Notes under the pieces: model-generated
The model's database searches: none
What the model was told of the DNA's origin: nothing
The model's input: the letters and a program-made list of their open reading frames with translations, nothing else
Translations under genes and position numbers: made by a program
Source: a virus
Length of the DNA: 64,000 nt
IMG/VR virus record: IMGVR_UViG_3300036859_000232
Coordinates: 1-64,000 of that record
Reading direction: 5' to 3' (one strand)
In this document: positions 1 to 28,025 of the stretch, piece after piece
How positions within the stretch are numbered: the stretch's first letter is position 1
How the letters are laid out: the number at the start of each line of letters is the position of its first letter

Positions 1-363
1 CGAGTCCATCGCAGCGTCGGCGTAGAAGTCCGGTGCAGTGCCCTTCCAGTCACGGAAGGGAACTCCGGACTGATGGGGCTCGCCCTCAAGTTCGGCGCCG
101 GACGCAAGGATCCGCTCACCCGTTGCCTCGTCGATCAGGACCCGCGCGGCCTTCAGCTCGCGGCCCTCCGCGTTCATGAAGATGTTAAGGTCGTCGGCCT
201 CACGCAACAGTGCGAGCGCATCGTCGTCCTTCTTCGCCTCCACGTCCAGGTTCCAGACCGTGTGCCCCTCGTCATCCTTGATCTCGAACCGGAAGCCCTC
301 AAAGACGACGACCTGCTCCTGCGTCAAGTGATCGAGCGCGCTGCGCGTGTGGATGTATTCCAT
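1..363 (-). CDS. Hypothetical virion-module protein (partial, runs off left edge)
   Basis: An open frame of 121 codons with no stop runs off the left edge. The ATG at 363 has a strong AGGAGG eight bases upstream, and the previous gene ends nine bases before it. The N-terminus reads MEYIHTRSALDHL and the visible part is acidic. It follows the capsid gene in the same direction, so a head-tail connector or minor virion role is likely from position only. I do not recognise the family. Confidence 0.7.
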   Translation of the reverse strand, partial: MEYIHTRSALDHLTQEQVVVFEGFRFEIKDDEGHTVWNLDVEAKKDDDALALLREADDLNIFMNAEGRELKAARVLIDEATGERILASGAELEGEPHQSGVPFRDWKGTAPDFYADAAMDS

Positions 364-6178: not shown

Positions 6179-6186
6179 AAGACCTC

Positions 6187-8457: not shown

Positions 8458-8462
8458 CTAAG

Positions 8463-9081: not shown

Positions 9082-9212
9082 TTTCCTTTCTCGTGAACGT
9101 GCTCGACGTATGCTTTCTCACACACCTTGATGTGAGCGAGCAAATCGCCTAACGGATCGGAGTTCGGGTCACTCCAGTCCGATGCTGGAGAGAGGTCGAT
9201 GTCCTCGTACAC
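9069..9212 (-). CDS. Small acidic hypothetical protein
   Basis: 47 residues from a GTG at 9212. No ATG is available in the frame, and an in-frame stop lies ten codons further upstream. The composition is convincing: acidic first half (YEDIDLSPASDWSDPNSDP), then a helix with Cys and His ending GKCYS. It overlaps the next gene by 13 bases, as in the rest of this operon. It lacks a clear Shine-Dalgarno, so the start is uncertain. Function unknown. Confidence 0.5.
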   Translation of the reverse strand: MYEDIDLSPASDWSDPNSDPLGDLLAHIKVCEKAYVEHVHEKGKCYS

Positions 9213-9266
9213 GACATGAGGGTAACGGATGACGGCAAGGGGTCAGCCAATCTTCGGACAGGCAGA

Positions 9267-9287
9267 AGCCGCGGGGGTGACGCGGCT
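9267..9287 (-). terminator. Short GC hairpin downstream of terminase
   Basis: AGCCGCG and CGCGGCT form a perfect 7-bp stem around a 7-base loop in the 146-base gap after the terminase stop. There is no run of T, so an intrinsic terminator is doubtful. Confidence 0.35.
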
Positions 9288-9358
9288 CCCACCTACATCC
9301 AGCCGACGAGCTGGAAGTACGGGCGGAACAGGGAATGGTGCGTTAGGAGAGTACCACG

Positions 9359-10897: not shown

Positions 10898-10950
10898 AGA
10901 TGGATATTACTCGGGTGGTTTAGTAAGAAGCGTGATGATCTCCGAAGTCG

Positions 10951-11163
10951 TTACTGCTCATGGCAACCGTGATAACACCAATCATCGGCACGTTCCGTCT
11001 TCTTCGGATCGTCGGTCATCTGCTCGTTGCGGAAGTGTCCGCATGGTAGGCGAACGTAACGCAGACCATCGGGAGTCTGGAAGTAGGCTCCGATCTCGAT
11101 GGTCGACCAATCCGCGAGGTTGAAAACAACGGGTGGAGAGTGAAGTTGCGTTTTCTTCGTCAT
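10951..11163 (-). CDS. Hypothetical small Cys/His protein
   Basis: 70 residues, ATG at 11163 overlapping the upstream stop as ATGA. C-terminal Cys and His residues (LPCGHF, then DDWCYHGCHEQ) could bind zinc. It is the last gene of the small-gene array before the terminase. Function unknown. Confidence 0.65.
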   Translation of the reverse strand: MTKKTQLHSPPVVFNLADWSTIEIGAYFQTPDGLRYVRLPCGHFRNEQMTDDPKKTERADDWCYHGCHEQ

Positions 11164-11462
11164 TCGGGAGTTGATCCCTGCTCCACTGCCGGAACTTCGA
11201 TTCCAGCCTGCATCATCCAGCGTCGGACCTCGTCGGGCTTCATCTGTAGCGCCAACTCGAACCCGAGGAGCAGCCGTGCGAACTTCTGCTTGAGCGCGAA
11301 GACATAGAACTCGTCGCGCTTCTCGTCGGGCAGCTCGATGTTGAGCCGGTACTGGTGGATCTCGTCATAGTCGCGCTCGATGACCGCATCGGGGAACCCC
11401 TCTCGGACCAGCGCCTCGTACGTGTCGGGCTCGTCCTCGGCGTACAGCAGGTCGATGAACAT
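11160..11462 (-). CDS. Hypothetical acidic protein
   Basis: 100 residues, ATG at 11462 overlapping the previous stop as TGATG; a TTG one codon upstream is rejected. The N-terminus MFIDLLYAEDEPDTYEAL is acidic, followed by a helical Leu-rich segment (KQKFARLLLGFELALQM). It is part of the tightly overlapped leftward array. No family recognised. Confidence 0.65.
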   Translation of the reverse strand: MFIDLLYAEDEPDTYEALVREGFPDAVIERDYDEIHQYRLNIELPDEKRDEFYVFALKQKFARLLLGFELALQMKPDEVRRWMMQAGIEVPAVEQGSTPE

Positions 11463-11674
11463 CAATCGCTCCTGTCCGTTGGTCCTTGGTGAACGGACGC
11501 TTCGTGGAGCCGCAGGTGCATCTCGATGCAGGCCCGCTTGTCGTTGATGTGAGGCAGGTCCGGGATCGCAACACCGTGAACTTCATGCAGGTGTCCTCGC
11601 GTGCCGGTGGTGAACGCCGTCACGACCAGGTGGAAGGCGTGAGGCCGTCGCATGTCCTCTCTCGTCAGGCTCAT
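11462..11674 (-). CDS. Hypothetical small protein
   Basis: 70 residues, ATG at 11674 in a TGATG overlap with the preceding gene. It is His-rich (LHEVHGVAIPDLPHIND, EMHLRLHEASVHQ), which could reflect metal binding, though no clear motif is present. Translation is probably coupled to its neighbours. Confidence 0.6.
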   Translation of the reverse strand: MSLTREDMRRPHAFHLVVTAFTTGTRGHLHEVHGVAIPDLPHINDKRACIEMHLRLHEASVHQGPTDRSD

Positions 11675-11985
11675 CAGCCCTCCTCGCTCGCGGAGGAATG
11701 CTGAACTGACGCCCTCATCGTGGCACCGTAGCTGAGTGTCCAGCGCTCTACGGCCCGCTCAGCGACAAGCAAAGGTTCCATCACGAACGCGTCCGATTGC
11801 GTTGGGCGCGCATCGCAGTCGCAGTCGGCGTCATCCGAACACATCGACGCGCAGCCGAGATCGTGCCAGAGCGTCTTACGAAGCGTCCTGGTGAGATCGG
11901 CGACGATAGCTCGCGCTTCGTCCCGCTCATTCCGATAGACCTCCACTAACGTCTCCGCCGCTTGGAGGTCGAGTGGTTTGCTCAT
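11674..11985 (-). CDS. Hypothetical protein with Cys cluster
   Basis: 103 residues from the ATG at 11985, which overlaps the previous stop as ATGA; the longer frame upstream is rejected. A helical N-terminus (DLQAAETLVEVYRNERDEAR) is followed by a cluster of four Cys (GCASMCSDDADCDCDAR). The C-terminus SVQHSSASEEG belongs to the repeated junction family described at 13576-13611. Confidence 0.6.
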   Translation of the reverse strand: MSKPLDLQAAETLVEVYRNERDEARAIVADLTRTLRKTLWHDLGCASMCSDDADCDCDARPTQSDAFVMEPLLVAERAVERWTLSYGATMRASVQHSSASEEG

Positions 11986-12248
11986 GACTCGCTGTCCTGA
12001 CGGGATGAATGATGAACTGCCGTCGTTGGTCGGTCGTAGCCGACTCGCATCAGCCAGTCCATCGTGTAGCCGTACGACTTGCTCGCCCACTCACGCTCTT
12101 GGCGTGCTTCACGCCGGAGATCGCGACGAGGACGAGACAGGAGCCGGTGTGTTTTCGCTTCAGCGTCCAACGCGTCCGCACGGCGGTGACGGTACTTGAA
12201 CCGCTCACCAGCCGCGTGCTCGTGAGCCTCCCACTCGTCCCTCGTCAT
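11982..12248 (-). CDS. Hypothetical basic protein
   Basis: 88 residues, ATG at 12248 (ATGA overlap). Strongly basic and helical (LSRPRRDLRREARQEREW), so nucleic-acid binding is conceivable. The C-terminus (VHHSSRQDSES) comes from the repeated junction sequence shared with other genes. Function unknown. Confidence 0.6.
   Translation of the reverse strand: MTRDEWEAHEHAAGERFKYRHRRADALDAEAKTHRLLSRPRRDLRREARQEREWASKSYGYTMDWLMRVGYDRPTTAVHHSSRQDSES
11983..12018 (-). repeat. Repeated gene-junction sequence, copy A
   Basis: On the minus strand this reads TTCATCATTCATCC, then CAGGACAGCGAGTC, then the ATG of the 103-residue gene. It is a diverged relative of the junction at 13576-13611: same C-terminal Ser-Ser coding, same GAGTC just before ATG. 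Confidence 0.55.
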
Positions 12249-12844
12249 GCATCCCCCTCGCTGGCTCCTGAACGGTGAGCGGGTGACGGTTGGTCAGTCC
12301 GCTTGATGCCGAAGTCCTTCGCCTTGATCTTCACCATGCGCCCGTCGTCGTGCCACCAGACGATTCCCTCGATGTTGTGGGTGGCGAGGTAGTCGCGGAT
12401 CGCATCGAACGTCCTGAATGGCATGACCAGTTTCACGTCTCCGTGAGGACGCAGGACGTGGCCGTAGCAGCCCTCAGGGTTCCCCTGCACCTTCGGGCCA
12501 ATGAGTTCATAGGTGCCGTCTACTAACGACTGGCGACATGCGTCATACGCCTCGCGGTGGTACTGATGCTCAGGGCCGTCACCGACCGGAACCCAGCCCT
12601 GTTGCTTGCCCGTGTTCTCATCCACGTCGTTCGCCGGGACGAAGTCGGTAGGTGGCGTCTTGCCCTTCTTAACCTCGTACCGGGCGAACATTTTGCCGTC
12701 CTCGATGAGAACGCAGGTGCCGTCCCACTTCTGCGTAGGCACACCTTCACCAGCCAGAACCCATTCCGCGCCTGGAACGACCTCGTCACGAACGAGATGG
12801 TCCCCGTCGTAGTTGCGTTGGTAGAGGCTGATGATCTTCTTCAC
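12245..12844 (-). CDS. RNA ligase-like nucleotidyltransferase
   Basis: 199 residues from the GTG at 12844, set by a GTGA overlap with the upstream stop; a longer frame exists but lies inside that gene. All signature motifs of the ATP-dependent ligase superfamily are visible: motif I KWDGT with the likely adenylated Lys at 39, motif III-like ELIGPK at about 113-118, motif IV EGIVWW at about 159-164 and motif V KIKAKD at about 172-177. Size and motif spacing fit the single-domain RNA ligase family DUF5565. It would seal RNA ends in the cytoplasm, perhaps repairing tRNA or other RNA cut by host anti-phage nucleases. The biological substrate is inference. Confidence 0.8.
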   Translation of the reverse strand: MKKIISLYQRNYDGDHLVRDEVVPGAEWVLAGEGVPTQKWDGTCVLIEDGKMFARYEVKKGKTPPTDFVPANDVDENTGKQQGWVPVGDGPEHQYHREAYDACRQSLVDGTYELIGPKVQGNPEGCYGHVLRPHGDVKLVMPFRTFDAIRDYLATHNIEGIVWWHDDGRMVKIKAKDFGIKRTDQPSPAHRSGASEGDA

Positions 12845-13116
12845 TCTGACTCCGTGGTTAGAGCGGAGGACTCGTGAACTGCCTTCAGGTCGGGTCGTCG
12901 CCACCCATGGACAGGGCAGACGTTGACGGTTACGAGACGAGGACAACAGCACGGCTCGTTGGGCGCCGCGTCGAAGAAACTCTCGAGAACAGCACGGGCG
13001 ATATGGTCAGCATTAGTCGCCATCGCCGTCGTACACCACGGGATAGCCCGAATCCGCTCGGCGGCCGACTCGACCTCAGCTTCGACTTGCTCACGAAGCC
13101 AGACGTCATCGGTCAC
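12841..13116 (-). CDS. Hypothetical protein with Cys-rich C-terminus
   Basis: 91 residues, GTG at 13116 (GTGA overlap with the upstream stop). A helical acidic N-terminus is followed by NEPCCCPRLVTVNVCPVHGW, a candidate zinc site (CCxP...CPVH). Its tail, VHESSALTTESE, is encoded by a copy of the repeated junction sequence; the same VHESS ending recurs at 42712-42804. Confidence 0.65.
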   Translation of the reverse strand: MTDDVWLREQVEAEVESAAERIRAIPWCTTAMATNADHIARAVLESFFDAAPNEPCCCPRLVTVNVCPVHGWRRPDLKAVHESSALTTESE

Positions 13117-13217
13117 TTCGGTGTCACCTCCTTCGGCTTATCGCGCTTCTCCCCGCAGCGCGTACACCGGCTGAGTGCCGGGTGGTTCATCCCGTCGCAC
13201 TTGCTGCACTTCCACAT
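13113..13217 (-). CDS. Zinc-ribbon micro-protein
   Basis: 34 residues, below usual ORF cut-offs. ATG at 13217 overlaps the previous stop as TGATG, and its TGA overlaps the next GTG as GTGA. Two CxxC pairs (WKCSKC, then RCTRC) form a minimal zinc ribbon followed by a Lys-rich tail. It may bind a protein or nucleic acid. It belongs to a set of at least a dozen tiny zinc-ribbon genes in this window. Confidence 0.65.
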   Translation of the reverse strand: MWKCSKCDGMNHPALSRCTRCGEKRDKPKEVTPK

Positions 13218-13243
13218 CAGGCGTCCGTTCTCTCGTTGTGCGC
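13215..13243 (-). repeat. Junction repeat encoding HNERTDA, copy 1
   Basis: On the minus strand CACAACGAGAGAACGGACGC precedes the next ATG by three bases. The same 20-base string occurs at 42558-42577 on the plus strand directly before another ATG, and a shorter form near 38328. It encodes the C-terminus HNERTDA of the upstream gene and serves as leader of the downstream gene. Confidence 0.7.
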
Positions 13244-13426
13244 TGCCCAGTCGCACTTCCAGATGGAGTCCGGTGAGCAGCCCACGCAGTTGTGACCATC
13301 ACCATCAGGGTCGTTCCACGGGTGGTCCGGGCGAGGGTCTTCCTCCGTTGCGCGAAGCGCCGCCAGCGCGTCGTCGCGGGAGTCGAACTGGTTGAGCCAG
13401 TTGGTCAGCCACTTCGGCACTTCCAC
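13217..13426 (-). CDS. Hypothetical small protein
   Basis: 69 residues from a GTG at 13426 (a second GTG two codons on is possible); the 130-residue frame upstream is rejected because it overlaps a convincing gene. An amphipathic N-terminus (PKWLTNWLNQFDSRDDAL) is followed by CVGCSPDSIWKCDW, a possible zinc site. It ends in the repeated HNERTDA tail. Confidence 0.55.
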   Translation of the reverse strand: MEVPKWLTNWLNQFDSRDDALAALRATEEDPRPDHPWNDPDGDGHNCVGCSPDSIWKCDWAAHNERTDA

Positions 13427-13431
13427 GCTGC

Positions 13432-13578
13432 TCAATCCGTCACCGCGGACTTGTGCTGAACCGGTTCTTTCCGACGGTAGACCCAGATGCCGAACCCGGC
13501 GTGGTAGCACTCGAACGGGGACGCTTCCTCCATCTGCTTCCAGGCCGTGCAGACGGCGTCGGGGTGCGGTCGCTTCAT
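13432..13578 (-). CDS. Hypothetical micro-protein
   Basis: 48 residues. ATG at 13578 overlaps the previous stop as ATGA and follows directly the repeated junction at 13576-13611. Cys at 10 and 30 and an aromatic patch (YHAGFGIWVYRR) are visible. No function assigned. Confidence 0.6.
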   Translation of the reverse strand: MKRPHPDAVCTAWKQMEEASPFECYHAGFGIWVYRRKEPVQHKSAVTD

Positions 13579-13763
13579 GACTCACCGTCCCGTGTGGATG
13601 ACTGCTCAAGCGCCGCGACCATCAGCTTCGAGTCCATGTGCTGCGCCAAGTAGCTCCGAACCGCCTTCTCGCAGAGTTCCCCGATCTCTGAGTCCTCGAT
13701 GCAGGCTTGTACCCGGACGAGACGATGCAGGTTGTCGTCCACCCTCACGTAAAGCACCTTCAC
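13575..13763 (-). CDS. Ribbon-helix-helix-like small protein
   Basis: 62 residues, GTG at 13763 (GTGA overlap). The pattern of a short strand (VLYVRVDD) followed by two helices (NLHRLVRVQACIED, IGELCEKAVRSYLAQHM) fits the Arc/CopG ribbon-helix-helix fold, which binds operator DNA as a dimer. The C-terminus LEQSSTRDGES comes from the repeated junction sequence. Confidence 0.55.
   Translation of the reverse strand: MKVLYVRVDDNLHRLVRVQACIEDSEIGELCEKAVRSYLAQHMDSKLMVAALEQSSTRDGES
13576..13611 (-). repeat. Repeated gene-junction sequence, copy B
   Basis: Minus-strand order is GAGCAGTCATCCACACGGGA, CGGTGAGTC, ATG. It codes for the tail EQSSTRDGES of one gene and forms the leader, with a weak GGGACGG Shine-Dalgarno, of the next. 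It is almost identical to the copy at 38015-38051 on the opposite strand. Confidence 0.75.
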
Positions 13764-14236
13764 TCGGTCCCCTCTGTCCGTTCCGTCACTCTGGAGTTGC
13801 CATCCGCCAGCCCCGCTGGTGAATCAGGAACGTCAGCACTCGTAGCACTCTTCATGACCTCGAATAGTTCCTTGAGCCAGTCACCCGAGCACGTGAGCCC
13901 GTAGATCGCAGCAGCAACTAACAACTCGGCGTCATCGTCGGCTTCCAGGGCATTGATGAGCTTGTCCACGTTCTCTCGAACCTGGTGCGCCTGCTTGATG
14001 TACCGCTGCCGCTCCCGAGCATTCATGTCCGTGACGAGCTTCGCCATCTCACTTGCCTCCTGACTCGGTGTCTCTCGACTGGATGACTGCTCATCGGATA
14101 CGGTGTAGCGCCCAGACTCGTAGGCGTCACCGTGCTTGTTCTGGATCGCGATTGCATCGAGCACGGTGCCTCCCTTAACGAGGATTCCCTCGACCTTCGA
14201 CTGAGCCGTCTGCTTCCACCACACAATCCATCTCAT
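13760..14236 (-). CDS. Hypothetical protein, apparent two-gene in-frame fusion
   Basis: 158 residues. The first half (MRWIVWWKQTAQSKVEGILV...) and second half (MAKLVTDMNARERQRYIKQ...) look like separate small proteins. The join, [16 protein letters not shown], is encoded by a repeated junction that normally holds a stop, a Shine-Dalgarno (AGGAGG) and a start. Relative to the copy at 41889-41938, two extra bases keep the frame open here. Translation may also restart at the internal ATG at 14047 to give a 95-residue protein. The second half has a helical charged N-terminus and a hydrophobic core (AELLVAAAIYGL). Functions unknown. Confidence 0.6.
   Translation of the reverse strand: MRWIVWWKQTAQSKVEGILVKGGTVLDAIAIQNKHGDAYESGRYTVSDEQSSSRETPSQEASEMAKLVTDMNARERQRYIKQAHQVRENVDKLINALEADDDAELLVAAAIYGLTCSGDWLKELFEVMKSATSADVPDSPAGLADGNSRVTERTEGTE
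14045..14095 (-). repeat. Repeated gene-junction sequence with internal Shine-Dalgarno, copy D
   Basis: Minus strand: GAGCAGTCATCCAGTCGAGA, GACACCGAGTCAGGAGGCAA, GTGAG, ATG. The copy at 41889-41938 lacks two bases in the GAGAGAC run and has a stop before its ATG. Confidence 0.75.
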
Positions 14237-14262
14237 GACTCACCGTCCTGTTTGGATGGCCA
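14234..14262 (-). repeat. Repeated gene-junction sequence, copy C
   Basis: Minus strand: GTGGCCATCCAAACAGGACG, GTGAGTC, ATG. This copy lies wholly between a TAG stop and the next ATG, so its conservation cannot be explained by protein coding. Confidence 0.65.
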
Positions 14263-14520
14263 CTAGACTGCCGACCGCATACCCTCGGGGGCGAGGGGAT
14301 CGAGGGTAGCGGTAGCGGCAGTCTTCCCAGCGTTGACGATGGTCCAACGAGAAGCGACCGGACAGTCCATGTAGTCGATCACGCGGCTATGACCTATCTT
14401 GCAGACCTCTTCGACGAGAACGGAGTCCCATGACTCACCCGGAGCGAAGTTGAGGAGGACATGAACGTGGATGGTCGGTCCACCGTCGTACGAGAGTGTC
14501 GCGTTGTGAACCTTCCTCAT
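14263..14520 (-). CDS. Hypothetical protein
   Basis: 85 residues from the ATG at 14520 (ATGA overlap). Strand-rich N-terminus (HNATLSYDGGPTIHVHVLLN) and a hydrophobic core. No recognised family and no catalytic motif. Part of the leftward array. Confidence 0.6.
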   Translation of the reverse strand: MRKVHNATLSYDGGPTIHVHVLLNFAPGESWDSVLVEEVCKIGHSRVIDYMDCPVASRWTIVNAGKTAATATLDPLAPEGMRSAV

Positions 14521-14792
14521 CGCGTCCATCTCTCATCGATCGGCGCACACAACCCACCCGCCGCCTGGAGGTTCTTCGACTGGTCGAACGGTCCGCGTCT
14601 CTTCCCGTAGCGGTGGAACTCGACGACTTCTCTGCGCGCGCTGAACGTCGGCAGCAGGTCACGGATTCGCGGTGGTGATTCGTTACGCGTGAACCAGTTC
14701 GCGAGTCGGCCCGTGTGATTGGAGAGTCGACGGAGCGCACGGGTGACGATGACAAGGAAGCGGAACATGCGGATGTTCCATCGGCTGCTCAT
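14517..14792 (-). CDS. Hypothetical basic protein
   Basis: 91 residues, ATG at 14792 (ATGA overlap with the ribbon-helix-helix gene upstream). Very basic N-terminus with a short hydrophobic stretch (MFRFLVIVTRALRRLSN). Probably co-translated with the regulator gene. Function unknown. Confidence 0.55.
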   Translation of the reverse strand: MSSRWNIRMFRFLVIVTRALRRLSNHTGRLANWFTRNESPPRIRDLLPTFSARREVVEFHRYGKRRGPFDQSKNLQAAGGLCAPIDERWTR

Positions 14793-14953
14793 CGCTTCGT
14801 CTGTTTCGCGTACGCCTTCATCGCACGACGGACGATCGCTCCTATCGAACGGTCCTCCAGTTCAGCGATGCGACGGATCTCGTTGTAGATGTCCTTCTCT
14901 ACGCGGATGGACTGGTACTCCTTCAGCGGCTGATTCGAGGGTGGTCTTGGCAT
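14789..14953 (-). CDS. CopG/Arc-type ribbon-helix-helix regulator
   Basis: 54 residues from the ATG at 14953. The strand SIRVEKDIYNEI, the helix RRIAELEDRSIGA and the helix IVRRAMKAYAKQ match the ribbon-helix-helix DNA-binding fold, which acts as a dimer on short inverted repeats. Its own promoter places the predicted transcription start on the A of the ATG, so the message would be leaderless, and an inverted repeat GACAA-N11-TTGTC overlaps the promoter. Autoregulation is likely. It leads the leftward genes from 14.9 kb. Confidence 0.75.
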   Translation of the reverse strand: MPRPPSNQPLKEYQSIRVEKDIYNEIRRIAELEDRSIGAIVRRAMKAYAKQTKR

Positions 14954-14989
14954 GGGACAAGTATGCCACATTTGTCACATTACGTCCAA
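14954..14989 (-). promoter_or_regulatory. Promoter and putative operator of the ribbon-helix-helix gene
   Basis: Minus strand: -35 TTGGAC (14989-14984), 18-base spacer, -10 CATACT (14965-14960), then six bases to the ATG. No Shine-Dalgarno lies between, consistent with leaderless translation. The inverted repeat GACAA/TTGTC (14956-14960 and 14972-14976) flanks the -10. Confidence 0.6.
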
Positions 14990-15166
14990 CCGAAATACTC
15001 GACAACCCGGTATCCTGGGCATCGGGCCGGGAGCCCGAGGGAGCCGCAGGATCGCGAGCGGCGAACTCTCTCGCCACCGGGCGAACAGGCGAAGAGGTCG
15101 TCACACCCACACCCTCACCCTCAAGGGCAGCCACTATGGGTGTGGAAAAAAATGGAATAGGAGTCG
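14990..15166. other. Intergenic region, no gene recognised
   Basis: 177 bases between a leftward promoter and a small rightward ORF. Frames that stay open here have poor composition. A small hairpin TCGGGC/GCCCGA with a 5-base loop (15022-15038) is visible; nothing else is recognised. Confidence 0.4.
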
Positions 15167-15286
15167 ATGAGCCGAGAAACATTTACGGTGCCTGTCCATA
15201 GCCCCCCCATCCTGATCCCGCGCGTGGCGGACCGGGACGAGGACGAGGACGGTGCGCGCTACGCGTGTGTCATCCGACTGACGTGA
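15167..15286 (+). CDS. Possible small plus-strand protein
   Basis: 39 residues (MSRETFTVPVHSPPILIP...), ATG at 15167 with AGGAG six bases upstream. It ends in a convergent 17-base overlap with the leftward gene at 15270-15509. It would be the only plus-strand gene in the leftward array. No promoter is evident. Real-gene status rests on the Shine-Dalgarno and reasonable composition. Confidence 0.35.
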   Translation: MSRETFTVPVHSPPILIPRVADRDEDEDGARYACVIRLT

Positions 15287-15509
15287 TTAGCTCCACGTCC
15301 CACGTCTTGCCGACGTACTCGCGCACGCGCCGCTCCAGCGCCTCCAGCGTGTCTGTGATTGTCTCGTCCAGCCAGTCTCCCATCTGCTTAAGCTGGTCCT
15401 CCGTGAGCGGACGAGAGAACGTGCGCTGAGGCTTGCGCGCGAGCCATGTGTGTATCGCGTGCTCCGTGATCTTGAGTCCGCGTGTCGTGTCGTCGTCCTT
15501 GCGCGTCAT
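15270..15509 (-). CDS. Hypothetical helical protein
   Basis: 79 residues from the ATG at 15509 (ATGA overlap); the longer upstream frame is rejected. Helical and charged (EDQLKQMGDWLDETITDTLE), with a basic N-terminus (HTWLARKPQRTFSRPL). No family recognised. Confidence 0.65.
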   Translation of the reverse strand: MTRKDDDTTRGLKITEHAIHTWLARKPQRTFSRPLTEDQLKQMGDWLDETITDTLEALERRVREYVGKTWDVELITSVG

Positions 15510-15964
15510 GACGTCACCTGCGAACCGTCGCGGAGAGGACGCGTGGAACATCCCGGGCCGTGAACCTCGCAGCACTCATAGCCCATGTCGTGATTCTTCG
15601 CCCAAGTAGCACCACAGTAAGTTGCGCGTTCGTCCATGATGCGCGGAAGATCGGCCGCTACCGGTAGCGCATCGACATACGCGATCTGCAACGGCCCACC
15701 ATCGAACGTCTCATTCGCCTCCAACGATCCACCGTCCATCGCGTCAGCTTCCCTCGCGTACGGTCCCCAAACATCGAAGTCATCGAACACGTACCAACCC
15801 GCTTCCGTGACGTCGTGCGAACCAGCCTTCACGTGCGAACCTCCTCGTGTTGACGATCTGACAACACCTACGCTACTCCTCCTCGCGGGTAGGTGCAAGA
15901 GGGTGTAGGCCGTCCATGCGAGTGCGAGGACGTCGAGCGCGAGGACGACGTAGAGGACGATCAT
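15506..15964 (-). CDS. Hypothetical membrane-anchored protein with an internal promoter
   Basis: 152 residues from the ATG at 15964 (ATGA overlap). The first 26 residues form a transmembrane segment (IVLYVVLALDVLALAWTAYT); the rest is soluble, with Cys pairs near the end (YECCEVHGPGC). A full promoter, a 17-bp operator-like palindrome and GAGGAGG lie inside the coding region, directly before a GTG at 15832. A second, 108-residue soluble form (15506-15832) is therefore likely to be made. The dual output is inference. Confidence 0.6.
   Translation of the reverse strand: MIVLYVVLALDVLALAWTAYTLLHLPARRSSVGVVRSSTRGGSHVKAGSHDVTEAGWYVFDDFDVWGPYAREADAMDGGSLEANETFDGGPLQIAYVDALPVAADLPRIMDERATYCGATWAKNHDMGYECCEVHGPGCSTRPLRDGSQVTS
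15849..15898 (-). promoter_or_regulatory. Leftward promoter with 17-bp operator (copy 4), inside a gene
   Basis: Minus strand: -35 TTGCAC (15898-15893), 17-base spacer, -10 TAGCGT (15875-15870), then GTTGTCAGATCGTCAAC at 15865-15849, one mismatch from palindromic. ACGAGGAGG and a GTG start follow. The layout is the same as at 16.6 and 17.6 kb. Confidence 0.6.
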
Positions 15965-16593
15965 GCGACGGGTGACTCCACGTCCGATGCGGTTGGGTTA
16001 TAGACGCACCATGTCCCTTGGTAGGAGTCTGTGAGCGGGACGTATCCGGCGTCGGTGAGGATGGCGTCTATGTCGTCCAGGTACTCGGGGGCGTACTCGT
16101 CGCGCTGGTCGTCGGTCAGCTGGTCGTACTCTGCCGAAAGCTTCGAGAGCCGGACATACGCGGAGACGTAATCGGCTCCCGGTTTGTCGCTGACCAGGGC
16201 CGATGCGTCAGAGACGAACGTTCGGACGTTGCCCGTGAGCGTGTCCCGGCCGGTATCCCGTTGGACCAGTGGGTCCCCATGCGCCGATTCTCTGTGCTCG
16301 TCGCCGCAGATGGAGCACTCATACGGCGCAAGTAGCTCATGGCATCGGCCACAGTAGTCGGGGGAGTCTCCAGAGTGAACGTTGATACTCAGGATCACTT
16401 TCGGGAACTCGCCGGAGTCGAAAGAGTGTTCGTCCATGCGGTCGATCCCGTCATGCTGAGCGATCCGGTCTAGGCGTTCTTCGGTCGATTCTCCGATGTT
16501 CCCGCCGTTCCCGTTCGTCAGCTTGTCCACGATGCATCCGGGACAGTACGTGTCTGCCGCGTACGTGTAACCAACGATGCTGTCGAAGCTCAT
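15961..16593 (-). CDS. Hypothetical zinc-ribbon protein
   Basis: 210 residues from the ATG at 16593, chosen because GGGAGG lies seven bases upstream, at the end of the conserved leader CCGACGA...CGGGATG. Several Cys pairs (YCPGC near the N-terminus, then YCGRC and ECSICGDEH) suggest one or two zinc sites. The C-terminal part is helical (AYVRLSKLSAEYDQL). First gene after an operator-controlled promoter. No enzyme motif seen. Confidence 0.65.
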   Translation of the reverse strand: MSFDSIVGYTYAADTYCPGCIVDKLTNGNGGNIGESTEERLDRIAQHDGIDRMDEHSFDSGEFPKVILSINVHSGDSPDYCGRCHELLAPYECSICGDEHRESAHGDPLVQRDTGRDTLTGNVRTFVSDASALVSDKPGADYVSAYVRLSKLSAEYDQLTDDQRDEYAPEYLDDIDAILTDAGYVPLTDSYQGTWCVYNPTASDVESPVA

Positions 16594-16619
16594 CCCGTTA
16601 CCTCCCGCGTTCGTCGGCT

Positions 16620-16663
16620 GTTGTCCATGTGACAACACTACCGCGGATCGGCGTACGCGTCAA
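16620..16663 (-). promoter_or_regulatory. Leftward promoter with 17-bp operator (copy 3)
   Basis: Minus strand: -35 TTGACG (16663-16658), 17-base spacer, -10 TAGTGT (16640-16635), overlapping GTTGTCACATGGACAAC (16636-16620; 6-bp perfect arms). The operator would cover the start region. The leader GCCGACGAACGCGGGAGG follows. Confidence 0.7.
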
Positions 16664-17046
16664 TATCCGGCTTCGCGCAAAGCCTCCCCTATGGCGTCAT
16701 AATCCGGTCCGAGGAGCTGACGGAGTTTCGCGGTTTGCGCGCGCATCTGTGAGAACGTCCGCTCCGTCTCGCGGCTAGGCGTCATGCCTAGTTCGTCGCA
16801 CATGTCGAAGTGGTCGGCGCAAGATTCCACGATCGACGCGTCCGAGAATAGGCAACCGAGAACGTCTTTCGCGGACGGTTCGCCTAGCGCGGATCCGGTC
16901 CAGAACGGGACAGTCATCCGGCGACGTCGATACCAAAGGGTGACCCGCCAACCGTTTGCGCCACTGTCGTCCTTCCATGGTGCGGGCTCGCCGGTAAACT
17001 CGACGTCCGCGCGGATTTGGTCGAGTGTCACGATGTCTGTTTGCAT
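16660..17046 (-). CDS. Hypothetical protein
   Basis: 128 residues, ATG at 17046 (TGATG overlap). Mixed alpha/beta with a Trp/Arg-rich strand region (WRVTLWYRRRRMTVPFW) and a C-terminal helix. Its last codons overlap the -35 of the next promoter. Family not recognised. Confidence 0.65.
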   Translation of the reverse strand: MQTDIVTLDQIRADVEFTGEPAPWKDDSGANGWRVTLWYRRRRMTVPFWTGSALGEPSAKDVLGCLFSDASIVESCADHFDMCDELGMTPSRETERTFSQMRAQTAKLRQLLGPDYDAIGEALREAGY

Positions 17047-17396
17047 CAGTAGTCCTTCTCTTCCGTTATGAGTCGTTCCCGGATGACCATCAGACCGTCG
17101 CCAGCGTTCCGGAGATCGTCATACGTCGCGTCCCCCGCGTCCACCGCCGATAGGATCATGTCGAGGACATAGGAGTCCTCGCGTGCTTGGTCCTCGGCTC
17201 CCATCATCAGACCCGGCCGGTACTCCCACGCGTCAGGGATCGTCTCGTCTCGCCGGTAGAGCGCTTCCGCGATGGCGAACGCGGCTCCCATGACGGTCCC
17301 CCATTCGTCTCCGTCGAATGAGTCGTTCACGATCCCTTCAACTATTGACAGACCGGGTGTTACGTCGTCGGTCGCGACGTCGAATCGCGCGGTCAT
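17046..17396 (-). CDS. Hypothetical acidic protein
   Basis: 116 residues, ATG at 17396 (ATGA overlap). Acidic, helical in the middle (GAAFAIAEALYRRDE). No motif recognised. Co-translated with both neighbours. Confidence 0.65.
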   Translation of the reverse strand: MTARFDVATDDVTPGLSIVEGIVNDSFDGDEWGTVMGAAFAIAEALYRRDETIPDAWEYRPGLMMGAEDQAREDSYVLDMILSAVDAGDATYDDLRNAGDGLMVIRERLITEEKDY

Positions 17397-17572
17397 TTAG
17401 CATCCCTCCCGCAGGAGTCCACCGAATCCCCGCACATGTCGCAAATCACGTCTGACGCGGGTAGAACGTTCCGTGTTCCGTCCACGTCTACGATTGCGAC
17501 TGGTGCGGTCTCGTCCGTCGAAACGCTTAAAAGCGTTCCCGTTCGGCCGTTGTGTCGGATAGTGACTGTCAT
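17393..17572 (-). CDS. Hypothetical small protein with CxxC
   Basis: 59 residues from the ATG at 17572, with GGGAGG upstream at the end of the conserved leader. The N-terminus is a small beta barrel-like pattern (TVTIRHNGRTGTLLSVS) and the C-terminus has ICDMCGDSVDSC, possibly metal binding. First gene after the promoter at 17598-17640. Confidence 0.65.
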   Translation of the reverse strand: MTVTIRHNGRTGTLLSVSTDETAPVAIVDVDGTRNVLPASDVICDMCGDSVDSCGRDAK

Positions 17573-17597
17573 CCCGGAAACCTCCCGTCTCGTCGGT

Positions 17598-17640
17598 GTT
17601 GTCACATTGACAACATACCCTCTCGCGCGTCGTCTGTCAA
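17598..17640 (-). promoter_or_regulatory. Leftward promoter with perfect 17-bp operator (copy 2)
   Basis: Minus strand: consensus -35 TTGACA (17640-17635), exact 17-base spacer, -10 TATGTT (17617-17612), and the palindrome GTTGTCAATGTGACAAC (17614-17598, 7+3+7) overlapping the -10. It lies within the last codons of the upstream gene. Confidence 0.8.
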
Positions 17641-18000
17641 CACGTCAGGGACGACGATTCCACTTGGCGTGAACGTCCACCGATCAGCGCGTGTCCGGTA
17701 CCGCCGCAGCTTCGGATTGCACTCTGGACAAAACCGCGCTGCGTTGCGCTGGCGTTTCATCTGACGCTCCAGCGTCCGCGTTCCATGCCAGATGATCCGT
17801 GTCGTTCGCCAACCGATGCCTCGTGCCGCAACCGCCGCGAGCAGACGTGATCCTCGACCCGCTAGGTGATATTCCTGCCGACTGACGACATGCTCGACAG
17901 ACGACGGTGAGAACACGTCGCAGAAACCGATGTAATGCGCGCAGTCGCCGCGCGCGTCTCTTGGGTAGGGTGCGTGGAAGTGATCGACGTAGACCGCCAT
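17602..18000 (-). CDS. GIY-YIG-like protein
   Basis: 132 residues from the ATG at 18000 (TGATG overlap; a GTG one codon earlier is possible). The order of HYIGFCD, EYHLAGRGSRLLAAVAARGI, ERQMKRQRNAARFCPECNP resembles a GIY-YIG family of actinobacterial proteins whose members end in ERQLKNQGGASRxCPLC. Such domains cut DNA in homing or repair enzymes. The catalytic signature is imperfect (YIG present, the first GIY not evident), so activity is uncertain. Its 3' end contains the next promoter. Confidence 0.55.
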   Translation of the reverse strand: MAVYVDHFHAPYPRDARGDCAHYIGFCDVFSPSSVEHVVSRQEYHLAGRGSRLLAAVAARGIGWRTTRIIWHGTRTLERQMKRQRNAARFCPECNPKLRRYRTRADRWTFTPSGIVVPDVLTDDAREGMLSM

Positions 18001-18470
18001 CACCGGACGATAGACGCGAGTACCGACACGATCTGCGACCCGACGTAGTCGAGTCCTTGCTCCATCGCGTAGTCGTCGTCACCGATGAATCCCCAGCATG
18101 AATCAAGCTCGGTTTCGTGCAGGGTGTCGTGATCGCAGATTGACTCGATGGTGACGGTGTAGCCGTAGACCGCGCCGCGCATCCACTGGTCGTATGTCTC
18201 AACCTCGGACTCGGCACACTTCGCGACCAGGTCGTCAGGAGTGCCTACGTTCGCTTGGTCCTTCCGCGAGACGATGACGAGCCCCGCGACGCCGGAATCC
18301 CAACCGCTGCTGTCCATGCACTCAGCGCGGAATCGTGCTAGCTCCGCGTCATGGTTGGGAGTGTTCGGCGTGAAAGGTGATCCCATGCGGCAGGACATTC
18401 CGGAGTGTTCGTACCAGTACAACGGCGCGACCATCACCGCATCGTGTTCTTCGATGATCGACGCGAGCAT
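18000..18470 (-). CDS. Hypothetical protein
   Basis: 156 residues from the ATG at 18470; a GTG at 18479 inside the upstream stop region is an alternative. Alpha/beta, with WYEHSGMSC, VAGLVIVSRKDQA and a C-terminal hydrophobic segment (DYVGSQIVSVLASIVR). Resembles small phage proteins of unknown role. Second gene of the leftward transcript from 18.6 kb. Confidence 0.65.
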   Translation of the reverse strand: MLASIIEEHDAVMVAPLYWYEHSGMSCRMGSPFTPNTPNHDAELARFRAECMDSSGWDSGVAGLVIVSRKDQANVGTPDDLVAKCAESEVETYDQWMRGAVYGYTVTIESICDHDTLHETELDSCWGFIGDDDYAMEQGLDYVGSQIVSVLASIVR

Positions 18471-18471
18471 G

Positions 18472-18582
18472 TCACTCACTCTCGCAATCGTGACCGTTGA
18501 ACCATTCGTTCGCGTCCGTCTCGTCCGTGAGGTCGAACACGCGCCCACACTCCGGACACTTCGCTTCCGTTCTGACGTTCAT
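18472..18582 (-). CDS. Zinc-finger micro-protein
   Basis: 36 residues, first leftward gene of the divergent control region. ATG at 18582 with GGGAGG six bases upstream in the conserved leader. KCPECGRVF followed by NGHDCE gives a C-x2-C...H-x-C zinc site. As the first gene off this promoter it may act in host take-over or regulation, which is inference. Confidence 0.7.
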   Translation of the reverse strand: MNVRTEAKCPECGRVFDLTDETDANEWFNGHDCESE

Positions 18583-18610
18583 TGCGCCTCCCTGTCTCGT
18601 CGGATACCAC

Positions 18611-18639
18611 AACTTACCACCATGTTGACAAACTGTCAA
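18611..18639 (-). promoter_or_regulatory. Leftward promoter of the divergent control region
   Basis: Minus strand: consensus -35 TTGACA (18639-18634), 17-base spacer, -10 TAAGTT (18616-18611). The leader TCCGACGAGACAGGGAGG leads to the ATG at 18582. It overlaps the rightward promoter, so both cannot easily be occupied together. Confidence 0.8.
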
Positions 18640-18640
18640 C
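18624..18640. promoter_or_regulatory. 17-bp operator (copy 1) shared by divergent promoters
   Basis: GTTGACAAACTGTCAAC, a perfect inverted repeat with 7-base arms and a 3-base spacer. It contains the -35 hexamers of both divergent promoters. Three related sites lie at 17598, 16620 and 15849. Confidence 0.8.
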
Positions 18641-18653
18641 ACCCTGCTACGGT
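18625..18653 (+). promoter_or_regulatory. Rightward promoter of the divergent control region
   Basis: -35 TTGACA (18625-18630), 17-base spacer, -10 TACGGT (18648-18653). The leader CCGACGAGAGAAGGGAG follows, then the ATG at 18685. It starts the rightward operon. Confidence 0.8.
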
Positions 18654-18684
18654 GTGTCTTGTCCGACGAGAGAAGGGAGTAGGG

Positions 18685-18846
18685 ATGCCGGGGATGTTGA
18701 TAACGATCACCGTGGACGAGCTAAGGCCGTTGAAGTGGGACGGCGTGAAGTTCACGGTTCCGTGGTCGCAACGACTGAGCGCGATAGCCGCGTTTCGCGC
18801 GGTTGCCGACGAGCTGGAACAACGCGAAAGGGATGGTGAATGGTGA
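18685..18846 (+). CDS. Hypothetical first rightward gene
   Basis: 53 residues (MPGMLITITVDELRPLKW...), ATG at 18685 with AAGGGAG upstream. Beta strands at the N-terminus, then a helix (AIAAFRAVADELEQRERDG). First gene of the rightward transcript; small size suggests a regulatory or host-interaction role, but no family is recognised. Confidence 0.65.
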   Translation: MPGMLITITVDELRPLKWDGVKFTVPWSQRLSAIAAFRAVADELEQRERDGEW

Positions 18847-19737: not shown

Positions 19738-20090
19738 CCGACATACAGGCGACGCAGACGCACACGCCCGGACCGTGGACCTACGCCTACGGTCAGGTGT
19801 ACGCGGGTAACCCGGAGGACATCGACGGGGTGAACGGCGGTATCAGCATCGGCCACGCGGACCGCAACGAGGAACGGACACGACCAACCGAGCGGGATGC
19901 CAACGCACGCCTCATGGCAGCGGCACCGGAACTGCTCGATGCTCTCCACGTCGCGCTGGACGCTCTCTGGGAATTGTCTCGTGCAGCCGATGGAGACGAT
20001 GTGTTCTCGGTGGACCCCTGGAACGAGGGAGGTATTGGCTACGACGCCATACGGGAACTGAGGGACGTCATCGGGAAGGTGGCCGGATGA
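19734..20090 (+). CDS. HTPGPW-family phage protein
   Basis: 118 residues, ATG at 19734 (ATGA overlap). The motifs THTPGPWTYAYGQVYAG and RDANARLMAAAPELLDAL mark a very widespread family of small phage and prophage proteins of unknown function. The second motif is a helix usually followed by an acidic tail. Confidence 0.75.
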   Translation: MTDIQATQTHTPGPWTYAYGQVYAGNPEDIDGVNGGISIGHADRNEERTRPTERDANARLMAAAPELLDALHVALDALWELSRAADGDDVFSVDPWNEGGIGYDAIRELRDVIGKVAG

Positions 20091-20356
20091 CCACCCGCCC
20101 CTATTCCTCCATCCCGCTCGATGACCGCCTCTCCAATCTCACGCCCCAACAGGAACGCGCTCTCCGTCGCATCGAGTCCGCACACACGGTCATGCAGCAG
20201 GGCAGAGACGAGTTCGCCGCCGCCGTCATCGAAGCGATCGACGTGCATGGACTGACGTACGGGCTGATCGGTGCGCGGTTGGGGAAGGATCGGAGTGACG
20301 TGTTCAGGAGTGCGAAGAGGTTGCGGAATCGACATAAGAAACGGAGCGAGGGATGA
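20087..20356 (+). CDS. Hypothetical helix-turn-helix-like protein
   Basis: 89 residues, ATG at 20087 (ATGA overlap). The C-terminal half (HGLTYGLIGARLGKDRSDVF) looks like a helix-turn-helix, followed by the basic tail RSAKRLRNRHKKR, suggesting DNA binding. No family named. Confidence 0.6.
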   Translation: MTTRPYSSIPLDDRLSNLTPQQERALRRIESAHTVMQQGRDEFAAAVIEAIDVHGLTYGLIGARLGKDRSDVFRSAKRLRNRHKKRSEG

Positions 20357-20553
20357 CGACAACACGACAGACTTACGAGAAGGCCCGCGAAGAACTTTAC
20401 TGGTCAGGGATCCTGTTCGCGGTGGGAGCGCTCACGAATCACGACAACGTTTACGCGGGGATACTCGGTCACATGTTCGACCGTCCGAAGGTCGTTGTGA
20501 AACACGACATCGAGAAGAACCGCCGACTGATCGCCAGTCTCGATGTCAAGTAA
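20353..20553 (+). CDS. Hypothetical protein
   Basis: 66 residues, ATG at 20353 (ATGA overlap). One hydrophobic stretch (ELYWSGILFAVGALTN) and a basic second half. Function unknown. Confidence 0.6.
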   Translation: MTTTRQTYEKAREELYWSGILFAVGALTNHDNVYAGILGHMFDRPKVVVKHDIEKNRRLIASLDVK

Positions 20554-21055
20554 GCCGCTCGTCGGTCACCATCGTCCGGTAAAAGGGCTGACGAACGACT
20601 GGCTCACTCCACCGTCGATCATCGAAGCGCTCGGACCGTTCGACTTGGACCCCTGCGCGAGCGTCGATCAACCGTGGGAGACAGCTCGCACGCAATGGAC
20701 ACACGGTGGGTTAGAAGTTCCGTGGACTGGATTCACGTGGATGAATCCTCCGTTCGGACGCGATATTCCCGCGTGGCTGAAACGCATGACCGAACACGAC
20801 AACGGGATCGCCCTTTGCGCGGTGAGGACTGAGACGACGTGGTTCCGCGATTACGTGTGGAACGAGGCTGACGCGATCCTGTTCCTCCATCGTCGTCCAC
20901 ACTTCCACTATCCGGTGACAGGAGTACGCGCTAAGTCGAACAGCGGCGTTCCGATCTGTCTCGCAGGATACGGACTACTCGCGATGGAGCGATTGAAGAA
21001 CAGCAGGATCAACGGAACCTACGTCAGTCAGTGGGAGCCGATTCATCCTCAATAA
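20543..21055 (+). CDS. Phage DNA N6-adenine methyltransferase (Dam-like, PF05869 type)
   Basis: 170 residues, the usual length. TNDWLTPPSIIEALGPFDLD followed by PCAS, and WMNPPFG (NPPF catalytic motif), are the hallmarks of the phage adenine methylase family that transfers a methyl group from SAM to adenine N6. A stand-alone methylase in phage usually protects virion DNA from host restriction. ATG at 20543 overlaps the preceding stop by 11 bases. The convergent gene on the other strand overlaps its 3' end by 32 bases. Confidence 0.85.
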   Translation: MSSKPLVGHHRPVKGLTNDWLTPPSIIEALGPFDLDPCASVDQPWETARTQWTHGGLEVPWTGFTWMNPPFGRDIPAWLKRMTEHDNGIALCAVRTETTWFRDYVWNEADAILFLHRRPHFHYPVTGVRAKSNSGVPICLAGYGLLAMERLKNSRINGTYVSQWEPIHPQ

Positions 21056-21728
21056 CGACGCCTTCAACCTCCAACACCTGCGTCGTCTCGATCGCCATCG
21101 CTTCCGTCAGTCCTCGCAATGTCTTGTTCTGCAAGATCCGCTTGACCATCGCGCCCTTCACCTGCAACTGACCTGACGGTGGAGTCACATCCCCCGTTGA
21201 CGACAACGCCTCTCTCTCCGCTCGCTGATGTGCGGGAAGGTCGCTGCCGAACAGCTTCGCCAGTCGCATGAGTCCAACGTCGTCAAGGTCCGCAATGACC
21301 GCCAGCGTCCCGCCCTGTTCGCGGATCCGCTTCCGCAGCTCAGTCACAGGCTGCATCAGTACCTCTTGGATCTCTGCGGCCTGATCCGCGTGCTTCGTCG
21401 CCGCCGCCACTCTCCGCCGTTTGTGTACGGCAACTTCCTTCGCGGTCATGAAGTTGTCGTATGCCTCGGCGCGTTCCTTCCACCGATGCTTACGACTCCA
21501 CTGAGCGCACTGGTTCGTCGCTGGCTTGAGTCCGTACTTCTCCGCGTATCGACGACCGGCCTCCGCAATGGTGCGCTGTCCGTGGTCGAGGTTGAGGTAA
21601 ATCGTGAATGCCTCGTATGCCTTACCGGATTCCTCCGGCTGACGTAGCCACGGATCACCCTTGTACTCGCGGTCGGCGTTCTTCGCGTAGTTCGGCATGG
21701 AGATGGGGGAACGCGCGAGTTCGGACAT
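21024..21728 (-). CDS. Probable terminase small subunit / DNA-recognition protein
   Basis: 234 residues from the ATG at 21728; a GTG at 21764 would add 12 residues, and no clear Shine-Dalgarno decides. AYEAFTIYLNLDHGQRTIAE and QCAQWSRKHRWKERAEAYD match the helix-turn-helix region of many terminase small subunits. A coiled helical middle and an acidic tail follow. It is leftward inside a rightward region and ten kilobases from terL, which is unusual. Other DNA-binding roles are possible. Confidence 0.5.
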   Translation of the reverse strand: MSELARSPISMPNYAKNADREYKGDPWLRQPEESGKAYEAFTIYLNLDHGQRTIAEAGRRYAEKYGLKPATNQCAQWSRKHRWKERAEAYDNFMTAKEVAVHKRRRVAAATKHADQAAEIQEVLMQPVTELRKRIREQGGTLAVIADLDDVGLMRLAKLFGSDLPAHQRAEREALSSTGDVTPPSGQLQVKGAMVKRILQNKTLRGLTEAMAIETTQVLEVEGVVIEDESAPTD

Positions 21729-22203: not shown

Positions 22204-22232
22204 TTGCGTCTCGTGAGTGTCTATGCTACATT
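22204..22232 (+). promoter_or_regulatory. Rightward promoter directly after terminator
   Basis: -35 TTGCGT (22204-22209), 17-base spacer, -10 TACATT (22227-22232). An operator half-site GTCAAC and the conserved CCGACGAGAGAGG...CGGG leader follow up to the ATG at 22265. Confidence 0.65.
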
Positions 22233-22264
22233 TGTGGAAGTCAACCGACGAGAGAGGAAACGGG

Positions 22265-23948: not shown

Positions 23949-24205
23949 CAGACGATCCACTCGAACCGTTCCGCGAGGACGTCGACCAGATGGTCGAGCG
24001 CGGCATCCGTCAGGCCGAGTACGCCAATCTCCTCGCAACCGTCGATTGGGTGCGCGTTAACGCCGTCATCCAGGAACGACTCGACGCGATGTGTGACGTG
24101 TTGCACGACGAGTTCGGGATCCGCGAGCCAGGTGAGCAGACCATCCTCAAGAACTACTTACGCGTGAAGAGTAAGCGTGTGTTCAACAGGAAGGGAGGAT
24201 TGTAG
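23945..24205 (+). CDS. Hypothetical acidic helical protein
   Basis: 86 residues from the ATG at 23945 (ATGA overlap with the ATPase). Acidic N-terminus, helical body (ATVDWVRVNAVIQERLDAM), basic C-terminus. Sandwiched with overlaps between the ATPase and TOPRIM genes, so it may be a third subunit. Confidence 0.65.
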   Translation: MTDDPLEPFREDVDQMVERGIRQAEYANLLATVDWVRVNAVIQERLDAMCDVLHDEFGIREPGEQTILKNYLRVKSKRVFNRKGGL

Positions 24206-25224
24206 TGAGTCCGCAGATTGCGTACGAGGATTGGAAGCCTCAGGGTGAAACTCTCCGTCTTGTCGCTCATGCGCAGGAGATCTGCGAGGAGTACGCCACT
24301 GCCGGGTACGACCTGACCCTCCGGCAGCTCTACTACCAGTTCGTTGCGCGCGACATCATTCGCAACAATCAGAAGGAATACAACCGACTCGGCACGATCA
24401 TCAACAAGGCTCGACTATCGGGGCTCCTCGATTGGGATTACATCGTCGACCGTACGCGCAATCTTATGGCCCTTCCGCACTGGACCAAGCCGTCGTCGAT
24501 CATTGACAGCGCAGCGCGTGGGTACCGGCTCGACAAGTGGAGCACACAACTGTGTCGCGTCGAAGTATGGGTCGAGAAGGAAGCGCTTGCCGGAGTGGTG
24601 AGCCGTGTTGCCGATCGGAACGACTGCGCGTGGTTCTCCTGTCGTGGGTATGTGTCTCAGTCCGAGATGTGGGGAGCCGCACAACGGTTCAGCCGGTATC
24701 TTGCAAGCGGACAGAACGTCATCATCCTTCATCTCGGCGATCACGATCCGTCCGGCATCGATATGACACGCGACATCGAAGAACGGCTGAACAACTTCGT
24801 CACCATCGACAAGGTCAACGACGGCTACGAGAGATGGTCGTCTCTCGAAGAAACGGATGACTCGCAAGACTTCGATGCGTTCAAGGACTGGATGCGCGGC
24901 AAAGACCTCGGTCGTGTCGAGATCCGTCGCATCGCTCTCAATCGAGACCAGATCGACGAATACAACCCTCCGCCCAACCCGGCCAAGATGACCGACTCTC
25001 GGTTCCAGTCCTACGCCGACGAGCACGGTGAAGAATCGTGGGAGCTGGATGCACTGCCGCCCGACGTACTCGACGCGCTGATCGAAGAACACATCCGAGA
25101 CCTCATGGATGAAGAAAAATTTCGGGACGTTGAAGACGACGAAGAGGAACAACGACGCATCTTGACGGCTGTGTCTGAGCGATGGGAAGACGTCGCCGAA
25201 TACCTGAACGGAGGAACGCCATGA
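24205..25224 (+). CDS. Spo11/TopoVI-A-like TOPRIM protein
   Basis: 339 residues, GTG at 24205 sharing a base with the upstream TAG. The N-terminal domain (YDLTLRQLYYQFVARDIIRN, then KARLSGLLDWDYIVDRTR) is a winged-helix-like DNA-binding region with several Tyr. The TOPRIM centre shows VWVEKEAL (Glu about 124-126) and LHLGDHDPSGIDM (Asp about 179 and 181), the E...DxD metal site of topoisomerase VI subunit A and Spo11. If Tyr 43 or 44 is catalytic it could nick or break DNA; otherwise it may be a metal nuclease. A C-terminal acidic extension is present. Function in phage is not established. Confidence 0.6.
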   Translation: MSPQIAYEDWKPQGETLRLVAHAQEICEEYATAGYDLTLRQLYYQFVARDIIRNNQKEYNRLGTIINKARLSGLLDWDYIVDRTRNLMALPHWTKPSSIIDSAARGYRLDKWSTQLCRVEVWVEKEALAGVVSRVADRNDCAWFSCRGYVSQSEMWGAAQRFSRYLASGQNVIILHLGDHDPSGIDMTRDIEERLNNFVTIDKVNDGYERWSSLEETDDSQDFDAFKDWMRGKDLGRVEIRRIALNRDQIDEYNPPPNPAKMTDSRFQSYADEHGEESWELDALPPDVLDALIEEHIRDLMDEEKFRDVEDDEEEQRRILTAVSERWEDVAEYLNGGTP

Positions 25225-27996: not shown

Positions 27997-28025
27997 GTCC
28001 GGTCTATTGCCGCAATAGACCGGAC
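27997..28025. terminator. Perfect 13-bp hairpin
   Basis: GTCCGGTCTATTG, loop CCG, CAATAGACCGGAC. Exactly symmetric, in the 138-base gap upstream of the XRE-type regulator. Likely a terminator (bidirectional in principle) isolating the next operon; a protein-binding site is an alternative. Confidence 0.75.

Follow-up and report, generated by a model that had tools for sequence, protein, structure and literature searches.

Divergent promoters predicted from interleaved -35 hexamers share one palindromic putative operator in an uncultured phage

The only divergence of gene arrays in this part of an uncultured phage genome is a gap that holds two predicted promoters, reading outward on opposite strands, with both -35 hexamers inside a single palindrome. 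It is probable (roughly 0.6) that one dimeric repressor, acting through one operator family, co-represses both arms, and that the central palindrome doubles as both -35 elements for which polymerases compete. The type of control is broadly familiar in phages, and the layout is a recurrent one, not unique to this phage.

The virus record (IMGVR_UViG_3300036859_000232) is 67,407 bases long, and the analysed window comprises its bases 1-64000. The large terminase, portal and head genes of the record gave tailed-phage family matches, and the large terminase has 37% identity to Microbacterium phages. The record probably represents an uncultured orphan phage of actinobacteria. No close relatives were found by megablast, a terminase scan, a gene-30 scan or a pattern search with operator plus leader; INPHARED phages gave no megablast match to 17.5-20.5 kb, and none of 80 loci around the topoisomerase-like gene was syntenic with the window. 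The product of this last gene (24205-25224, +; PHROG 6247) has an invariant DHDPSG motif and relatives in phages of Microbacterium, Curtobacterium, Pseudomonas, Listeria and cyanobacteria.

Leftward genes occupy 373-18582, with the small ones at 10.9-18.6 kb and the terminase, portal and head genes further on. Genes run rightward from 18685 on, with the exception of a small-terminase-like gene (21024-21728, -; PHROG 6299), which lies alone on the minus strand within the rightward operon and a long way from the large terminase (9359-10897). The arrays are separated by ≈104 bp (bases 18583-18684), and the double promoter, as the earlier note had proposed, stands at the exact boundary between the leftward small-gene array and the rightward operon. 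Elsewhere in the window, the leftward array encodes a protein similar to RNA ligase 1 (12245-12844, -), and a single frame (39384-41057, +) joins a uracil-DNA glycosylase domain to a LAGLIDADG domain downstream of it, perhaps an intein or a fused homing endonuclease.

Both promoters read in the earlier note are present exactly, and their coordinates were confirmed (Table 1). To the right, TTGACA (18625-18630) is followed after 17 nt by TACGGT (18648-18653); on the minus strand, TTGACA (18639-18634) is followed after 17 nt by TAAGTT (18616-18611). Both -35 hexamers are perfect and do lie within one palindrome, an exact copy of which occurs only once in the window. The word "perfect" that had been given to this operator holds for its arms, which match at 7/7 positions, and not for the 3-bp centre, AAC, which is not symmetric. 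The description of the promoters as face-to-face was mistaken: the -35 hexamers, 3 bp apart, are interleaved and the predicted directions of transcription are outward, which makes this, by layout, a divergent pair with overlapping elements on opposite strands, whose RNAs could not collide. The predicted starts are ≈55 bp apart and the -10 boxes 32-37 bp apart. Since these boxes match TATAAT at only 3/6 positions, the pair escaped a strict scan of the E. coli type. Actinobacterial promoters require only TAnnnT as -10, and both central boxes are of the actinobacterial type TGn-TAnnnT.

The symmetry of the central pair reaches outward past the palindrome, a feature that the earlier note did not contain. 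In both predicted RNAs, (A/G)TCCGACGAGA stands first, and a Shine-Dalgarno sequence and an ATG (18582, -; 18685, +) come after it. With the palindrome left out, the outer arms had a self-complementary alignment score of 11, compared to a mean of 3.4 (sd 1.7), a value attained by 7 of 5000 random centres. The sequences, their spacing, the number and placement of the sites and the mirrored leaders can all be read directly from the DNA. A leader CCGACGAGA is also found 20-27 nt ahead of the starts at 17569 (-), 22265 (+) and 31114 (+), and a variant, CCGACGAAC, ahead of the start at 16593 (-).

Another repeat associated with gene starts, CAGTCATCCA...GGGACGGTGAGTCATGA, is found on both arms at several operon-internal genes, with its end at their ATG, and its copies at 13.6 and 38.0 kb are identical in 31/33 bases. 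Separately, TTGACAAC occurs in two intergenic places (42791-42830 and 46933-46975) with ATGTGGTCC downstream of each, and CCGACGAGA directly precedes the first; these sites are possible promoters of another class.

Table 1. Positions of predicted promoters, putative operators, leaders, repeats and candidate regulators in the 64,000-base window
Feature	Position	Strand	Remarks
Central palindrome, putative operator GTTGACA-AAC-TGTCAAC	18624..18640		One -35 hexamer per arm
Predicted rightward promoter TTGACA-17-TACGGT	18625..18653	+	TGC before -10; predicted start near 18660
Predicted leftward promoter TTGACA-17-TAAGTT	18611..18639	-	TGG before -10; predicted start near 18605
Leader motif TCCGACGAGA	18662..18671	+	Predicted rightward RNA 5' end; Shine-Dalgarno next
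Leader motif TCCGACGAGA	18595..18604	-	Predicted leftward RNA 5' end; Shine-Dalgarno next
First leftward gene	18472..18582	-	36 aa; zinc-ribbon similarity weak, below cut-off
First rightward gene	18685..18846	+	53 aa; without family match; overlaps the following ATG (18840)
Putative operator copy 2, GTTGTCA-ATG-TGACAAC	17598..17614	-	Perfect arms; begins within -10 of leftward promoter 17612..17640
Predicted leftward promoter TTGACA-17-TATGTT	17612..17640	-	Then leader CCGACGAGA (17596-17588), gene start 17569
Putative operator copy 3, GTTGTCA-CAT-GGACAAC	16620..16636	-	Overlaps end of leftward -10
Predicted leftward promoter TTGACG-17-TAGTGT	16635..16663	-	Variant leader CCGACGAAC, gene start 16593; found by eye
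Putative operator copy 4, GTTGTCA-GAT-CGTCAAC	15849..15865	-	Just downstream of weak leftward promoter-like sequence
Weak promoter-like TTGCAC-17-TAGCGT	15898-15870	-	Predicted; before GTG start near 15832
Promoter-like TTGCGT-17-TGC-TACATT with leader CCGACGAGA	22204..22253	+	Gene start 22265; without operator
Repeat CAGTCATCCA...GGGACGGTGAGTCATGA	11985, 13578, 14236; partly 14090	-	
Repeat CAGTCATCCA...GGGACGGTGAGTCATGA	38049; partly 41936	+	
Candidate regulator, Arc-like ribbon-helix-helix	14789-14953	-	54 aa; own predicted promoter with half-site AATGTGACAA (14981-14972)
Candidate regulator, HTH protein	20087-20356	+	89 aa; within rightward operon
Candidate regulator, XRE (HTH_3)	28110-28418	+	102 aa; 55 bits to HTH_3

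The palindrome belongs to a small family. A search of the 64 kb with GTTGWCA-N3-TGWCAAC, allowing at most one mismatch, returned four sites where 0.047 were expected, a count matched in 0/300 simulations, with the consensus derived from those same sites. With the central consensus alone and two mismatches allowed, three sites were found against 0.11 expected. The four sites, at 15849, 16620, 17598 and 18624, all lie inside 15.8-18.7 kb, and no member of the family is present in the final 3.4 kb of the record. One palindrome is therefore present at several predicted promoters, well above chance, as in a repeated-operator regulon. The three side copies lie at or just past the -10 of predicted leftward promoters, and none is placed as a -35. 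They have T as the fifth base on at least one arm (TTGTCA, which is not a -35), whereas the central site has A on both, making both of its arms perfect -35 boxes. Because the side copies cannot be -35 boxes, the palindrome appears to have been kept for a reason besides being one, and the base pattern of central and side sites agrees with expectation for an operator adapted to double use. Copy 4 has GATC in its centre; the record also encodes a Dam-like DNA adenine methylase (20543-21055, +) in the rightward operon.

From this layout we infer transcription, protein binding, repression, the identity of the regulator and polymerase competition. GTTGACA-N3-TGTCAAC would provide the -35 of a rightward and a leftward host-type promoter and also serve as operator for a DNA-binding protein of the phage, or possibly of the host. 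A dimer on the central site would cover both -35 hexamers, as had been claimed, and the three further palindrome copies lend support to the operator reading. On the side sites, of the form GTTGTCA-N3-TGACAAC, a dimer would cover the melting region. One repressor would then silence both the rightward operon and the small genes of the leftward array at once. In its absence, polymerases would compete for the central site and could not bind it simultaneously, since each predicted footprint includes the -35 of the other. Such mutual exclusion had also been proposed in the earlier note and is a sound deduction, by analogy with E. coli bidirectional promoters, which share their -10s (PMC12825309). 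If this mechanism is correct, a 17-bp site is at once the recognition element of two promoters and an operator, so that repression and the choice of polymerase orientation contest the same base pairs, and the operator at other promoters defines an early regulon in an uncultured phage for which no close relatives were found. The mirror symmetry also provides a ready two-way reporter.

The genes adjoining the central site had no regulator match, and the adjoining repressor gene of a lambda-type switch is thus absent there. The record encodes no fewer than three small proteins that plausibly bind DNA. The Arc-like protein matched PHROG 6506, "Arc-like repressor" (E 1.2e-6), and RHH_1 just over the Pfam cut-off. 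The half-site AATGTGACAA links its gene to the operator only weakly, because a 12-nt stretch identical to the half-site region recurs at 27.55 kb in apparent coding sequence; that second copy was discarded as a regulatory site. The HTH protein had weak profile matches (17 bits). Its AlphaFold model, made without an alignment, was predicted to be all-helical with a moderate pLDDT of 83, and its PDB fold matches were weak, the first being a ParB/Spo0J HTH domain (Foldseek E 0.8). The XRE protein was set aside as a weak candidate, the palindrome upstream of its gene (27997-28025), a perfect 13-3-13 inverted repeat GTCCGGTCTATTG-CCG-CAATAGACCGGAC, being unrelated to the operator. This gene, which has an AT-rich stretch upstream, was overlooked by the codon-usage gene caller, and a promoter-like TTGACT-17-TATGGT 11 nt ahead of an internal ATG at 28188 suggests a shorter, near-leaderless form.

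Mirror-image -35 hexamers coupled to both -10s are a recurrent pattern in unrelated viral sequences. The exact pattern, with a 3-bp gap, occurred in 59 IMG/VR contigs, whereas a control with both -10s displaced by 3 bp occurred in 5; a 4-bp gap was found in at least 120 contigs and a 6-bp gap in 50. Clustering at 75% core identity gave 14 clusters for the 3-bp gap, 14 among the matches listed for the 4-bp gap, 10 for the 6-bp gap and 2 for the displaced control. Since pattern and cluster counts exceed those of the control, the arrangement is recurrent and not bound to one gap length. The sequence preceding the late sigma gene gp55 in T4-like cyanophages accounts for the largest group (97 of the 120 matches listed with the 4-bp gap, 17 of 60 sites with the 3-bp gap). 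We discounted it as support for a divergent switch, because the gene upstream of gp55 is co-directional in S-SSM5 and Syn2; judged by gene layout, many recurrent mirror pairs do not serve divergent genes. The other clusters were classed by longest ORF, a crude measure that labels the window's own site "codirectional". In the gp55-upstream dyad (L325:1194-1285, L168:7315-7356 and ≈100 more IMG/VR loci), the stronger of the two -10s (TATAAT in L168) is oriented antisense to the upstream gene and directed into it; this dyad was seen in marine T4-like cyanophage loci of IMG/VR. A pair of high-GC contigs (L036:7320-7362 and L027:13740-13782) has a near-perfect mirror promoter with TATACT on both sides, adjoining what reads as the gene of a small XRE protein; by eye, at least two mirror sites besides that of the window, L036 included, have an XRE-like neighbour (L036, L028). 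We found no report of the exact layout in the literature searched, most subscription journals being outside its reach. We put forward only tentatively, as a possibility, that mirror -35 promoters are a phage control element evolved many times, in which the TTGACA/TGTCAA dyad is both -35s and a repressor site, a compact gate on polymerase orientation, with this phage as a clear high-GC example that reuses the dyad at further start sites. Their recurrence across unrelated contigs offers a natural set in which to test how overlapping -35s partition transcription.

Several other explanations were considered. Consensus matches by themselves are never proof, and the promoter-like sequences might have come together by chance. 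This is hardly credible here, as the promoters are placed correctly ahead of two Shine-Dalgarno/ATG starts on opposite strands and the 43-bp pattern ANNNTA-N8-TTGACA-N3-TGTCAA-N8-TANNNT, which matches the site exactly, was never approached more closely than four mismatches in 300 first-order Markov simulations of the window and has a zero-order expectation of 1.3e-7 per window, both figures being post hoc, from a pattern composed after the site was seen. For the looser TTGACA-16..18-TANNNT, 0.31 matches are expected in the window and four were found, three of which lie at 17.6-18.7 kb. The pair could instead be strong constitutive early promoters for the host polymerase, limited by polymerase competition only, in which case the palindrome is a by-product of packing two consensus -35s into 15 bp. 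TTGACA-N3-TGTCAA is palindromic automatically when both -35s overlap, no repressor gene is adjacent, and the 3-, 4- and 6-bp gaps of the viral layouts suit promoter packing better than a fixed repressor geometry. We nevertheless hold this to be unlikely, since the palindrome exceeds the hexamers by 1 bp at either end and other start regions contain three copies that do not serve as -35s.

The "main switch" of the earlier note is difficult to sustain: a single site that covers both promoters predicts joint shut-off, not a toggle, no recognised repressor adjoins it, and other predicted promoters or regulators are found at 21.8, 22.2 and 28.1 kb. Nor was a tyrosine or serine integrase found in the 67.4-kb record, which may be incomplete, so that the lysis/lysogeny sense of the word is unsupported. 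A true toggle, in which the HTH protein from the right and the Arc-like protein from the left compete at the central site for two programmes, as with CI/Cro or CI/MOR, would agree with the presence of both proteins on the expected arms and with the single site common to both promoters. It is quite improbable, however, because the Arc-like gene has a separate predicted promoter, the HTH assignment is weak, with no integrase found in the record there is no sign of a lysogenic programme, and a site over both promoters favours neither. Equally poor odds attach to capture by the phage of a host regulator's site to time early expression. Such capture is conceivable, but four copies within one 2.8-kb phage region better suit a phage-borne system.

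Co-repression through one operator family has counterparts in several known systems. In the immI region of P22, divergent promoters are under a small ribbon-helix-helix repressor, Arc or Mnt; an Arc-like protein is likewise encoded in the window, although its gene is 3.7 kb off and it is a candidate binder only. Actinophages have dispersed operators, such as the L5 stoperators and the conserved inverted repeats of phiC31. The putative repressor site described here is similarly repeated at several promoters, but it has just four copies, all within 2.8 kb, and a different sequence. In lambda OR, divergent promoters have palindromic operators in the gap between them. Divergent switch regions with palindromic operator(s) are also described for the telomere phages PY54 and N15 (PMC4488713), where they lie in the gap, and for CI/MOR of TP901-1 (PMC7250872). 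All share with our site divergent promoters and palindromic operator(s) of ≈16-18 bp in the gap, but their repressor genes adjoin and their promoters are placed asymmetrically, whereas the present gap has no repressor gene beside it and is arranged mirror-symmetrically. The short repeats just upstream of gene starts in cluster K mycobacteriophages (SAS) sometimes follow 17-bp inverted repeats, and the extended form (ESAS) has two inverted copies, each of 17 bp, with a variable spacer (PMC3203893). The present phage also has a short repeated motif close upstream of gene starts, CCGACGAGA as opposed to GGGATAGGAGCCC in cluster K, and its CAGTCATCCA...GGGACGGTGAGTCATGA repeat resembles the SAS idea with another sequence. 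E. coli bidirectional promoters share a -10, have starts typically 10-23 bp apart, and competition between polymerases has been measured at them once one of the two directions was strengthened (Warman et al. 2026, PMC12825309). They have in common with the central site a pseudo-symmetric DNA that offers two polymerase orientations, one binding event excluding the other; the central site differs from that type in that the -35 region is shared, both -35s are consensus, and the -10s and the predicted starts are further apart.
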